33,086 nt of DNA from Nitrospirales bacterium (GTDB lineage: Bacteria > Nitrospirota > Nitrospiria > Nitrospirales > UBA8639): NCBI GenBank assembly GCA_012270585.1, contig JAAXIB010000048.1, positions 1-33,086 of the forward strand, in the 5' to 3' direction. The notes beneath the pieces are model-generated. The model searched no databases, was not told the origin of the DNA, and worked only from the letters and a program-made list of their open reading frames with translations. Below are positions 16,024-26,300 of the stretch, piece by piece. The translations under genes were made by a program, and so were the position numbers. Position 1 is the first letter of the stretch. Each line of letters starts with the position of its first letter.

Positions 16024-17859
16024 ATGGAAATTAAGGCCACACTACGCGTCATTCGAGCCAGACTTGATCTCACGCAACAGCAACTTGCGGAGCGACTTGG
16101 GGTGTCCTTTGCCACGGTGAACCGCTGGGAAGGTGGCATGACCAAGCCACAGAAGGCGGCGCAGGAAGCAATCGCCGCGCTTGCCGCCGAGGCGGAAGTT
16201 GACGAAGCGGAGGTAGCCGTGGAGCCGACCGAGGCCGCAGCGCGTGTCACACGACGTAGAGCACGAACAACCCGACGCGTCGCTTCCCCATCCACCAAGC
16301 CCATGGAACAGATGTTGTGGGACGCGGCCTGCTCCATCCGTGGCGAGAAGGACGCTGCCAAGTTCAAAGATTACCTGCTACCGCTCCTGTTTCTCAAACG
16401 GCTGTCCGACGTGTTCGACGACGAGATCGGGCACCTAGCCGAAGAATATGGCGACCGCGTCACCGCGCTTGAGATCGCCGAAAGCGATCACAAACTCCTG
16501 CGCTTCTACCTGCCACCCGAAGCGCGATGGAACGTCATCAACGGCCGCGAAAACTACGAGTGGCCGCTCGACGACCGGAAGCGAAGCACACGGCCCCAAG
16601 ACCTCGGCGAACATCTGACCAGGGCCGTGCGGGCGGTCGTCAGGCAGAATCCCTCGCTTTCAGGCGTCATCGACCTCGTGGATTTCGCGTTCGAGCGCAA
16701 CGGTGAACGCGATGTCAACCCGGCCAAGCTCGCTGCCGTGGTCGAGACTTTCTCCGACCCCCGTTACCGGCTCGGACTCGCCGACGTGCAACCCGACTTC
16801 CTCGGCCGCGCCTACGAATACCTGCTGCGCAAGTTCGCGGAAGGTTCCGGCCAGAGCGCGGGCGAGTTCTTCACCCCGACCGAGGTCGGGGTCCTGATGG
16901 CGCACATCATGCGCCCGAAGCCCGGCGAGGATTGCCACGACTACGCCTGCGGTTCGGCCGGCCTGCTCGTCAAACTCCAGCTCGTTGCCCGCGAACTCGA
17001 TCCCACCAGCCGTGTGCCGCTCAAACTCTGCGGCCAGGAACTGCAAGCTGAAAGCTACGCCATCGCCCACATGAATACGATCATCCACGACATGGAGGTC
17101 GAGGTTGCCCGTGGTGACACCATGCTCAACCCCAAGTTCAAGACCGCGTCAGGCCAAATCAGCACTCACGACGTCGTGGTTGCCAATCCTATGTGGAACC
17201 AGCCGTTCAACTCCGAGATTTTCGCCAACGACCCGTTCGACCGCTTCCGCACCCGCGGTGGTATCACCACAGGCAAGGGCGACTGGGCATGGCTCCAGCA
17301 CACCCTCGCCTGCCTGAACGATCGTGGACGCGCGGCAGTCGTGCTCGACACCGGTGCCGTAACACGCGGCTCCGGCGCCAAACACGAGGACAAGGAGCGC
17401 AACATCCGCAAATGGTTCGTCGACCGCGACCTGATCGATGGCGTCATCCTGTTGCCGGACAATCTCTTTTACAATACCACCGCTGCCAGCATCATTGTGA
17501 TCTTGTCGAAACGGAAGCCGGAGACGCGCAAGGGCAAGATCGTGCTGCTCAACGCCAGCCGACGTGTAGGCAAGGGACGCCCCAAGAACTACATCCCTGA
17601 GAAGGACATTCGCCCGCTCGCGGCAACCTTCCTCAAGGGTGAGCCGGTTGAGGGTGAGGTTGCTATCATCACGCGTGAGCAAGCGGAAGAAGCCGACTAC
17701 AACCTCAGCCCAAGCCGGTGGGTGGGGCAGCTAAGTGCCGCAGAATTAGGCTCTGTCAGCGCACTATTAAAAAAGCTTGTCTCCCTTGACGATGAGGCAC
17801 GCCAGCTTTCAGCTTCGTTGTCGAAGCTCCTTGCAGGGGTCGTTGATGAGCCTGTTTGA
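16024..17859 (+). CDS. hsdM: Type I restriction-modification methyltransferase with N-terminal HTH
   Basis: The 611-residue protein is an N6-adenine methyltransferase of type I systems fused to an XRE-like HTH. Residues about 5-38 ([20 protein letters not shown], then [11 protein letters not shown]) are the HTH. An Ala/Glu-rich and Arg-rich linker spans about 50-95, the HsdM N-terminal helical domain ([28 protein letters not shown]) follows, then the catalytic domain with GEFFTP at 280-285, the SAM motif DYACGSAG at 306-313 and motif IV NPMW at 388-391. NPMW replaces the usual NPPF/Y/W and is a known variant. The start at 16024 is chosen because the HTH begins there; the longer frame from 15955 runs through the operator palindrome. 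It overlaps hsdS by 14 bases. Confidence 0.93.
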
Positions 17860-19153
17860 CGTGAAACTTGCGGGTCACCGCCGGTGGTTGCCGGTAGGCG
17901 ATGCCTATGAAGTTACGAGGAAACCACGTGGGCTTAATACGTCTCAATTGGCAGCGATCCCATTCGCGTCGATGGCTGATCTTCCGCAAGGCGGTGCGTA
18001 CGCACCTGATTACACCATGAAGGTGCCGACCGAGATCAAGAGCGGAACATATTTTGAGCGAGGTGACATTCTTGTAGCGAAAATTACGCCATCTTTTGAG
18101 AACGGCAAGCAGGCGCTCACGGCCGGGTTGCCAAATCCTTTTGGTTTCGCAACTACGGAAGTCATCCCCCTTCGACCGCGTACAGACGGACATGATCGAC
18201 GGTTGCTGTTCTTCTACCTGTTGCATCCAGATGTTCGTCATCATGTAGCCGAGCGCATGGAAGGCACGACTGGCCGACAGCGCGTGCCTGAGGAAGTGCT
18301 CCTCGATCTGCCATTCCCCGAGTTCGAGCCAGAAGAACAAACCGCAATCTCTGACTCCTTGGAGACAATCCAGCGGCTAATAGAGACCGAGATGAAATCT
18401 GCACAGACGGCGATTGGCCTCAAGTACGCCACGATGCGATCGCTCTTCACGCGCGGCCTGCGGGGTGAGCCGCAGAAAGAGACCGAGATCGGCTCTGTGC
18501 CAGAGAGTTGGAGAGTCTCGACTCTGGGAGAAACCGCACAACTCGAACGTGGACGCTTTATGCACCGCCCTCGGAACGAACCACGGTTTTACGGTGGGGC
18601 AACACCGTTTGTCCAAACCGGAGATGTCGTTCGGTCTGGCGGCCGTATCAGCGAATTTGTCCAAACACTTAACGAAGATGGCGTTGCGATAAGTCGCGTT
18701 TTTCCTGCGGGAACGATTCTCATCACGATAGCCGCAAACATAGGATTCACAGGAATTTTGCAGTTCGCCAGCGCTTGTCCCGATAGCCTCGTCGCTATAA
18801 CACCAAATCAGTCACTCAATGTCGAGTTTTTGGAATATTTTCTCCAAACCCAGCAAGGAGAAATGGATAAACTCGCCCCAAAGGGAACGCAGAAGAATAT
18901 CAATATTCAGTTTCTCACACCTTGGCCAATCGTAGTCCCTCCCGACAAAGAAGAGCAGCGCGAAATCGTTTCGATCTTGGAGGCCATCGACCACAAGATC
19001 AACCTGCATCGAAAAAAACTCGCCGTACTCGACGACCTGTTCAAAGCGCTATTGCACAAGCTGATGACCGGCGAAATTCGCGTCGCTGCTCTTGACCTCT
19101 CGGTACTCACCGGCATTGAGGAAAATATGGACACAAACGAGGTATATGCATGA
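17846..19153 (+). CDS. hsdS: Type I restriction-modification specificity subunit
   Basis: The 435-residue protein has the two-TRD layout of HsdS, which sets the split target site for methylation and cleavage. TRD1 is about 12-165, ending [14 protein letters not shown], followed by a helical spacer (about 166-205). TRD2 starts with [14 protein letters not shown] near 216 and ends with [14 protein letters not shown], followed by the second helical spacer ([37 protein letters not shown]). The start at 17846 is supported by AGGGG seven bases upstream and by the 14-base overlap with hsdM. The target sequence cannot be read from the protein. Its stop overlaps the next gene by four bases (ATGA). Confidence 0.93.
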
Positions 19154-26011: not shown

Positions 26012-26300
26012 CAAACGGCGTGAGGTGATTCGCCACCGCGTTGAATACTGGTCGCGGCGACTGAGCGTCCGTCCGCGGTTGGTTCGCGTTCAGCGCATGA
26101 CGCAGAAGTGGGGTTCATGTTCAACGTCGGGCATCGTGACCCTGGCCTCCGACTTGGCCGACCGGGAATTGAGCTTCCAGAATTTCGTCATCGCGCATGA
26201 ACTGCTGCACCTGCGCGTGCCCAACCACGGCAAACTCTTCAAGGCATTGATGACGGCTCACGTGCCCGGTTGGAAAAGGCACGATGTAAAAAGGCGGTGA
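25998..26300 (+). CDS. YgjP/SprT-like metallopeptidase of the restriction island
   Basis: The 100-residue protein is a small member of the YgjP-like (DUF45, WUxxx-type) zinc metallopeptidases. The metal motif is [19 protein letters not shown], with H67, E68, H71 and H77, preceded by the family block [14 protein letters not shown] (37-50). Full family members are about 230 residues; this short form keeps only the catalytic half. It overlaps the 3' end of hsdR by 14 bases, and such genes often close type I restriction operons. Regulated proteolysis of HsdR is known in type I systems (by ClpXP), so a dedicated protease would make sense, but that role is inference. Confidence 0.85.

Follow-up and report, generated by a model that had tools for sequence, protein, structure and literature searches.

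Why does a type I restriction operon of a Nitrospirales bacterium carry a series of other genes between hsdS and hsdR, and does any of them work together with the restriction enzyme? The operon lies on contig JAAXIB010000048.1 (assembly GCA_012270585.1), which was analysed as one whole stretch of 33086 bases (hereinafter, the window). The gene order is hsdM, hsdS, a gene for an AAA-TOPRIM protein, a HEPN-like gene, an AlbA_2-like remnant, genes for DUF6883 and DUF4926, a phd-vapC pair on the opposite strand, and then hsdR and a gene for a YgjP-type metallopeptidase (Table 1). A preceding reading of the DNA, made without database searches (hereinafter, the sequence-only reading), listed these genes and is borne out by the reading frames and profile matches; the overlaps that it gave, 14 bases between hsdM and hsdS and 4 bases both between hsdS and the AAA-TOPRIM gene and between the latter and the HEPN-like gene, are exact. 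HsdM, HsdS and HsdR of a type I restriction-modification system are all present and the motifs of HsdR are intact, so that the restriction system is probably functional. The explanation that we favour, albeit with modest confidence, is that this is a type I restriction operon with an exchangeable slot, in which a PARIS-like AriAB gene coupled to hsdS acts as a guard.

The gene coupled to hsdS had been described as OLD-like ATPase-TOPRIM. The ATPase and TOPRIM parts of this description hold but the OLD part does not: the protein has no match to the Pfam profile OLD-like_TOPRIM, and the nearest known protein is AriAB of the PARIS system. All its Pfam matches are to ATPase families, namely AAA_21 (68.1 bits against a cut-off of 27), AAA_15 (43.5 bits against a cut-off of 32.1), as in the PARIS ATPase, SMC_N and several weaker ones, and the best PADLOC profile, which comes without a displayed cut-off, is AriAB (PDLC02981, residues 211-461). 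A model of the whole protein (pLDDT 74.9) matched mainly ATPases (PtuA, SMC, Rad50 and some GajA), so the C-terminal domain was folded separately (residues 327-541, nine-sequence alignment, pLDDT 82.1, pTM 0.80). The two best matches of this model among solved structures are AriB of PARIS (8ux9_A, Z 10.7, 4.3 A over 179 residues; 8v46_D, Z 9.8, 4.3 A over 175 residues), below which rank the C-terminal domains of OLD (Z 8.0 and lower, to 6.4) and GajA (Z 6.6 and lower, to 6.0). A Foldseek search started with the same model also puts 8ux9_A at rank 1, at an E-value of only 3.5e-3, with no match at 0.001. Thus, the structure comparison predicts an AriB-type TOPRIM fold, as in PARIS. Residues D246, E247, H279, E348, D414 and D416 as well as the motif CIDEPE are invariant in nine sequences, the window protein included; we take these six residues to fit the chemistry of an ATPase and a TOPRIM nuclease. 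In contrast to PrrC, the protein has no match to AAA_13 at E 0.01. Taken together, sequence and model suggest that the gene behind hsdS is better named a single-chain PARIS-like AriAB than OLD-like.

Eleven AriAB-like genes were compared, those from the window, L034 (Nitrospira), L035 (Dehalococcoidia), L036 (RHO1_bin_48), L033 (a Zymomonas plasmid), L037 (a Rhizobium metagenome-assembled genome), L038-L041 (viral contigs) and L085 (genome G485, interrupted by a stop); L034 and G214, a genome of the window's genus, carry the same genes and were treated as one locus. The AriAB gene is linked to hsd genes in four of these loci (window, L034, L035 and L036), and the four form a single clade (support 100/99). 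Where AriAB follows hsdS, the two genes share the ATGA overlap in all three cases (window, L034 and L035). The gene order in L035 is hsdM-hsdS-AriAB-TIR-SLOG-hsdR-YgjP, with identities to the window of 74% for hsdM, 34% for hsdS, 63% for AriAB, 71% for hsdR and 65% for YgjP; the L034 contig starts just 5' of hsdS, so that its hsdM is out of view. In L036, AriAB precedes the hsdR gene of another type I family, and the same operon encodes PrrC (PADLOC 6.9e-134); AriAB, hsdR, hsdS, PrrC and hsdM are consecutive there (5037-13857), i.e., two guard-type genes accompany one restriction system. In the remaining seven loci, the sequence compared has no hsd gene adjoining AriAB; hsdSR genes are located about 8 kb from AriAB in L033, and L037 is seen on one side only. 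Of 269 genomes of the class, 23 contain some AriAB match but a full-length one is present in only two (the window and G214), and in a sample of the phylum, 3 of 395 genomes pass E 1e-25. Searches of viral contigs with the AriAB protein alone or the HEPN protein, and a phage search, found no relative. A 3' remnant of AriAB is present in the slot of G208, which suggests that AriAB was once part of this locus too.

The gap between hsdS and hsdR was compared in 16 loci, eight from the window's genus, L035 and seven more distant ones (42-45% identity in HsdR); L081 (G126), in which hsdM and hsdR are fragmented, and five hsdR matches of 30-35% identity (G141, G149, G038, G057 and G058) were excluded before counting. 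Within the genus, hsdR matches of 79-93% identity are found in 7 further genomes, i.e., 8 of 14 genomes including the window. Reading frames are present between hsdS and hsdR in all 16 loci, span 0.7 to 8.2 kb and are mostly different, in line with the turnover of cargo in the hsd operon that the sequence-only reading had proposed; the gap is an exchangeable cargo slot. The chromosomal site of the window is shared on both flanks by G208, on the left by G204 and on the right by G211, and at this site the window and these three genomes hold four different cargo sets. Other flanks are found in G212 and G216; G207 and G204 differ on the right over the 0.55-0.65 kb compared, and the contig of G214 ends. 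A plasmid search with HsdR found only relatives of 27.7-34.3% identity.

A Pfam scan of 30 slot reading frames and a PADLOC scan of 10 proteins (nine from the compared loci and one from L036) reveal diverse cargo, with many genes of known defence families. The slot of G208 encodes TIR, trypsin-like, argonaute (PADLOC pAgo_II, 6.4e-190), SIR2_2 and DUF3800 proteins; that of G212, DSR2 (6.3e-226) and AIPR; and that of a second G212 locus, DRT1a and YhcG. G204 and G207 have in common an AAA/methylase module (4.3 kb, 84.7%), and G211 carries HATPase and methylase genes. In G257, OLD-like_TOPRIM is accompanied by GajB (8e-91), a Gabija-like pair. Further cargo includes Fic in G071, RhuM in G171, a D12 methylase in G259, Mrr_cat in G095, TIR_2 and SLOG in L035, a transglycosylase-like gene and a relative of the G212 AIPR gene in G216, and a gene without a Pfam match in G218. 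In G214/L034, AriAB is followed by a gene for a 1119-aa protein (L034, 3213-6572) that has neither a Pfam match above the cut-off nor a PADLOC match and is a candidate new defence gene. In 8 of the 16 loci, the first cargo frame (ATG, GTG or TTG start, at least 60 codons) begins at position -3 relative to the end of hsdS, forming ATGA; the range from -19 to +16 covers its start in 15 loci (raw counts). A gene of a different type, encoding an aspartyl-protease-like protein, was identified by profile between hsdM and hsdS of L068 (12862-13251, minus strand) and is absent from the window; frames resembling it were seen by eye in L069, L071 and L072.

The sequence-only reading held that the nested proteins respond to phage that escape or inhibit restriction. 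Such a layered arrangement is reasonable for the gene coupled to hsdS, given its resemblance to PARIS, which is responsive to anti-restriction proteins, but not for all of the nested genes. The anatomy of the operon, the domains, the predicted AriB-like fold, the recurrence behind hsdS in two phyla and the cargo turnover are seen directly; sensing, the RNA target, growth arrest and co-expression we infer. HsdMSR would be the first line of defence, and the ATPase part of AriAB would sense a phage anti-restriction protein, an Ocr-like DNA mimic or another inhibitor. Sensing would free the TOPRIM nuclease, which would then cut an essential RNA, probably a tRNA, such that growth would stop before phage release; translational coupling would hold the guard and the specificity subunit at matched levels. 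The sister AriAB that precedes hsdR in a different type I operon, one that also encodes PrrC, supports this proposal.

Several observations weigh against a guard function. DUF4435 (PF14491), the profile by which the published rule detects AriB, has no match at E 0.01, and the protein is therefore named PARIS-like rather than filed as a member of PARIS. In sequence searches of PDB, AriA appears only at E 0.66 and 0.26, and it is not among the 50 entries listed for the whole-protein model (PtuA, SMC and Rad50-type ATPases). According to the accessible parts of the published reports, PARIS of E. coli works without a type I system (PMC9122126), and PARIS located inside a BREX island of Salmonella is not triggered by Ocr (PMC11341690). 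Seven of the 11 AriAB relatives are not embedded among hsd genes, although this comparison was made with the window's proteins and could miss divergent hsd genes. Moreover, unrelated first genes are also joined to hsdS by ATGA (AriAB accounts for three of the eight such loci), so this coupling is not specific to AriAB. The last two points, together with the high diversity of the cargo, are also what would be expected if the slot were a tolerant landing place, the cargo of which is expressed via the transcript from the hsdM promoter and persists independent of restriction, with AriAB a mere passenger. This possibility deserves serious consideration but appears less likely than a guard function, because two phyla have AriAB together with hsdS and a sister AriAB accompanies PrrC in a second type I family, with all four genes in one clade.

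Two other explanations concern the biochemistry of the effector. The AAA-TOPRIM protein could be a DNA nuclease of the OLD/Gabija type that acts alone on phage DNA; the order of ATPase and TOPRIM is the same as in OLD, and the structures of OLD and GajA are among the matches of the C-terminal domain. We consider this improbable because AriB ranks above both, and because neither OLD-like_TOPRIM nor a UvrD helicase is found among the window's ten scanned proteins, whereas in the G257 slot the GajA-like gene does match OLD-like_TOPRIM and is accompanied by a Gabija helicase partner. Alternatively, the AriAB-like and HEPN-like proteins could form a two-gene effector, a split analogue of PrrC, which combines an ATPase with a HEPN ribonuclease, as might be read from the 4-base overlap of the two genes and the R-x4-H motif of the HEPN-like protein. 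However, this pair was seen nowhere else, the genes after AriAB in L034 and L035 being different ones, and five HEPN relatives have no AriAB alongside, which makes a split PrrC highly improbable.

The HEPN-like gene, compared with its relatives, behaves differently from AriAB. The name HEPN-like reflects the R-x4-H motif and a weak PADLOC match to CARF_HEPN (E 0.0033), but no Pfam family is matched at E 0.01, and the gene could start at an internal ATG (codon 25). The R-x4-H motif is kept in five of six sequences, those of the window and four of the five relatives, G229 having Y. Among the 269 class genomes, three match the HEPN-like protein, only that of the window at an hsd locus; three plasmid relatives have no adjoining hsd or AriAB genes in the 12 kb shown, and one of them adjoins a retron-type HNH gene and an ATPase gene. 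With relatives located elsewhere (none of the five loci is hsd-linked), we regard the HEPN-like gene as a passenger. Among the class genomes, the gene order that includes it is unique to the window, but the order hsdS-AriAB...hsdR recurs; of the relatives of the gene called OLD-like, 4 of 11 are hsd-linked, all in one clade, and 7 are not. The possibility that all the nested genes constitute one system was rejected, given that the neighbouring genes do not co-occur across loci, and the single layered system of the sequence-only reading is not supported, on the same ground; furthermore, phd-vapC, in which a PhdYeFM antitoxin gene adjoins a PIN toxin gene, is on the opposite strand with its own consensus promoter. 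The HEPN-like, DUF6883/DUF4926 and phd-vapC genes thus appear as separate passengers of a slot with high turnover.

Traces of how cargo may arrive are found in displaced pieces of hsdS. When the conserved C-terminus of HsdS is used as an ungapped profile, second tails are identified within the slots of L035 (score 59.3) and G208 (38.1), compared with a null of 200 shuffled windows (mean 18.1, maximum 30.9); the G211 score (22.8) is not above the null. With gapped alignment, the scores are 102 for L035, 75 for G208, 61 for G211 and 51 for G214; they are reached by 0, 0, 0 and 1 of 100 slot shuffles, respectively, and by none of 2000 peptide shuffles in each case. A second, displaced hsdS tail is thus present inside the slot in four of the nine close loci. 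One remnant is common to G208 and G214 (159 columns, 74.8%), and the displaced tails therefore represent about three events. In G208, the TIR and trypsin-like genes come first, then the AriAB 3' remnant and then the hsdS remnant; in L035, the end of the displaced tail overlaps the TIR gene by ATGA. L035 also has, between hsdM and hsdS, an hsdS N-terminal piece (36% identity over 61 residues to HsdS of G259, E 3.8e-8) that continues without a change of frame into a second copy of the hsdM C-terminus (E 1e-12 to 1e-15). From these sequences, it seems that in L035 a block consisting of an hsdM tail, hsdS and AriAB entered an older hsdS, the two ends of which still flank it; a partial nucleotidyltransferase-like gene, identified by eye, seems to belong to the block. 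In the eight other close slots and the available hsdM-hsdS gaps, BLAST detected a single piece of hsdS, that of G208 (E 0.001), and none of hsdM; the remnants in G211 and G214 fall below that threshold. No scar was found in the window, in four other close loci or in the seven distant loci, except for a marginal match in G095; the latter (47, null maximum 43, 0 of 100 shuffles) was discarded on account of its location inside a large reading frame and its resemblance to an atypical tail.

Candidate scars in the window were rejected. The best slot-wide score for a displaced tail was reached by 4 of 100 shuffles and falls in an unrelated place within DUF6883/DUF4926; the score of the HEPN-like N-terminus as an hsdS tail was reached by 48 of 2000 shuffles; and the scores of the window DNA against G214 and G208 were reached in 232 and 126 of 1000, respectively. 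Inheritance of the variable hsdS tail along with the cargo was not borne out either: pairs with the same first cargo show tail identities of 0.80, 0.55, 0.56 and 0.67 (n=4), compared with a mean of 0.57 and a maximum of 0.69 for 32 other pairs.

The HsdM proteins show features of their own. Methylase motif IV, the usual form of which is NPPF/Y, reads NPMW in all 13 HsdM sequences compared, including that of the window. The inverted repeat upstream of the operon (Table 1) ends 4 bases before the hsdM ATG; related half-sites were recognised by eye in an alignment of four relatives (G204, G208, G207 and, weakest, G212), and no such repeat was found in L035. HTH-fused regulatory methylases are described in the accessible text of PMC12707154, and the HTH-HsdM of the window is possibly a self-regulated type I methylase. 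Combining the two lines, we tentatively entertain, while considering it rather doubtful, a scheme in which defence cassettes enter at hsdS in a polar manner and HTH-HsdM may repress the operon via the inverted repeat. Under this scheme, a cassette would comprise hsdS, or its 3' end, and a gene coupled to it, e.g., hsdS-AriAB; it would enter at the resident hsdS and replace the working specificity subunit, while fragments of the former hsdS and the earlier cargo would remain on the downstream side. The slot would then be an ordered record of acquisition with the newest cargo adjoining hsdS. A phage DNA mimic that titrates HsdM may then itself switch on the backup cargo. Promoter-like sites number 9 against 5.0 expected and terminator-like sites 10 against 11.8 expected.

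Table 1. Features of the hsd operon and related elements in the window
Feature	Position	Strand	Evidence
Perfect 13-bp inverted repeat, 13-bp spacer, putative operator for HTH-HsdM	15981..16019		half-sites recognised by eye in 4 relatives
hsdM, N-terminal XRE-type HTH (residues about 5-54)	16024..17859	+	Pfam N6_Mtase 2.8e-74, HsdM_N 6.4e-23, HTH_31 3.5e-8
hsdS, conserved tail encoded at 3' end	17846..19153	+	Pfam Methylase_S 2.5e-23; tails of 16 loci compared
AriAB-like gene (single-chain, PARIS-like), ABC ATPase and TOPRIM, ATGA overlap with hsdS	19150..20775	+	AAA_21 1.8e-18; PADLOC AriAB 1.1e-23; AriB best solved match of C-terminal domain
HEPN-like gene, R-x4-H, start uncertain	20772..21503	+	motif and weak PADLOC match
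AlbA_2-like remnant, 31 codons	21538..21633	+	assigned by eye, no profile run
DUF6883 gene	21647..21985	+	profile 2.9e-34
DUF4926 gene	21989..22264	+	profile 1.6e-13; homologous DNA upstream of hsdR also in G214 and G204
vapC-type PIN toxin gene	22344..22730	-	PIN 9.6e-16
phd-type antitoxin gene	22734..22988	-	PhdYeFM 9.4e-12
Consensus sigma-70-type promoter (12/12) upstream of phd-vapC	23018..23045	-	12-of-12 match
hsdR (alternative start: ATG at 23111)	23039..26011	+	TIGR00348 1.2e-128; motifs intact
YgjP-type metallopeptidase gene, 14-base overlap with hsdR 3' end	25998..26300	+	PF01863 5.2e-24
Decayed duplicate of vapC-phd and hsdR 5' end, outside the operon	12607..13433		72.9% identity over 851 columns

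The decayed duplicate, which like the HTH of HsdM and the inverted repeat was not part of the finding in the sequence-only reading, is 72.9% identical to the original over 851 columns (12618-13433 against 22342-23186) and is located between genes named by eye as EgtB-like and ActP-like; in G208, no more than 8 bp separate the matches on its two sides (window positions 12340 and 13494 correspond to 730 and 739). Elsewhere in the window, three in-frame 303-nt tandem repeats (29670-30575) each encode a similar unit of about 100 residues, and an inverted repeat of about 197 bp (83% identical) is found near both contig ends (217-413 and 32864-33061).

Cargo in type I loci is already known, including PrrC, DarTG2, TgvAB and the rlo/mlo genes (PMC12707154, PMC12255303, PMC11411939, PMC5183652), and single-gene PARIS fusions, triggering by Ocr (PMC9122126; Rousset et al. 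2022) and PARIS with BREX (PMC11341690, PMC12839542) have been published; the comparisons here and below refer to the accessible portions of these papers. The window protein resembles the fusions of PMC9122126 in combining an ABC ATPase and an AriB-like TOPRIM in one chain but is divergent in sequence, lacks the DUF4435 match and is encoded inside a type I hsd operon, coupled to hsdS. PrrC of the EcoprrI locus (PMC12707154) is likewise a guard-type gene within a type I hsd locus, whereas here a TOPRIM takes the place of the PrrC nuclease and AAA_13 is not matched. A similar layout, hsdM-hsdS-cargo-hsdR followed by a metallopeptidase gene, is that of the RptR-RMS-DarTG2-M48 island of E. coli (PMC12255303), the hsdS-hsdR site of which is a potential recombination hotspot according to its authors; there, however, the cargo is DarTG2 and the regulator RptR is separate, whereas here the HTH is fused to HsdM and the cargo is AriAB. 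With TgvAB of VPI-2 (PMC11411939), a pair of defence genes likewise lies inside a type I operon, but the pair is a GmrSD-type modification-dependent restriction system. In Salmonella D23580 (PMC11341690), PARIS is also within an Ocr-inhibited restriction-like system, but that system is BREX, PARIS has two genes, and Ocr did not activate it in the assays. In the rlo/mlo loci (a 2005 study cited via PMC5183652), other genes separate hsdR from hsdS and hsdS from hsdM, in another host and from other families; displaced hsdS tails are unmentioned in the accessible part of PMC5183652. A literature search that covered neither preprints nor most subscription papers, with papers judged mostly by their listing, recognised none on PARIS inside a type I operon or on displaced hsdS pieces. 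Thus, cargo between hsdS and hsdR is known, whereas a PARIS-like resident and hsdS scars were not met in this search.

In the arrangement described here, a putative PARIS-like guard is encoded within the operon of the very enzyme that it would guard, alongside the precedent of PrrC, which makes the guard idea testable within one transcript. Given that sets of defence genes succeed one another in the slot, its uncharacterised cargo in related genomes, genes without a known family such as the 1119-aa gene of L034, amounts to a good list of candidate defence genes. The displaced hsdS pieces, in turn, would offer a definite trace, one that can be searched for, of the way in which embedded defence genes are acquired.

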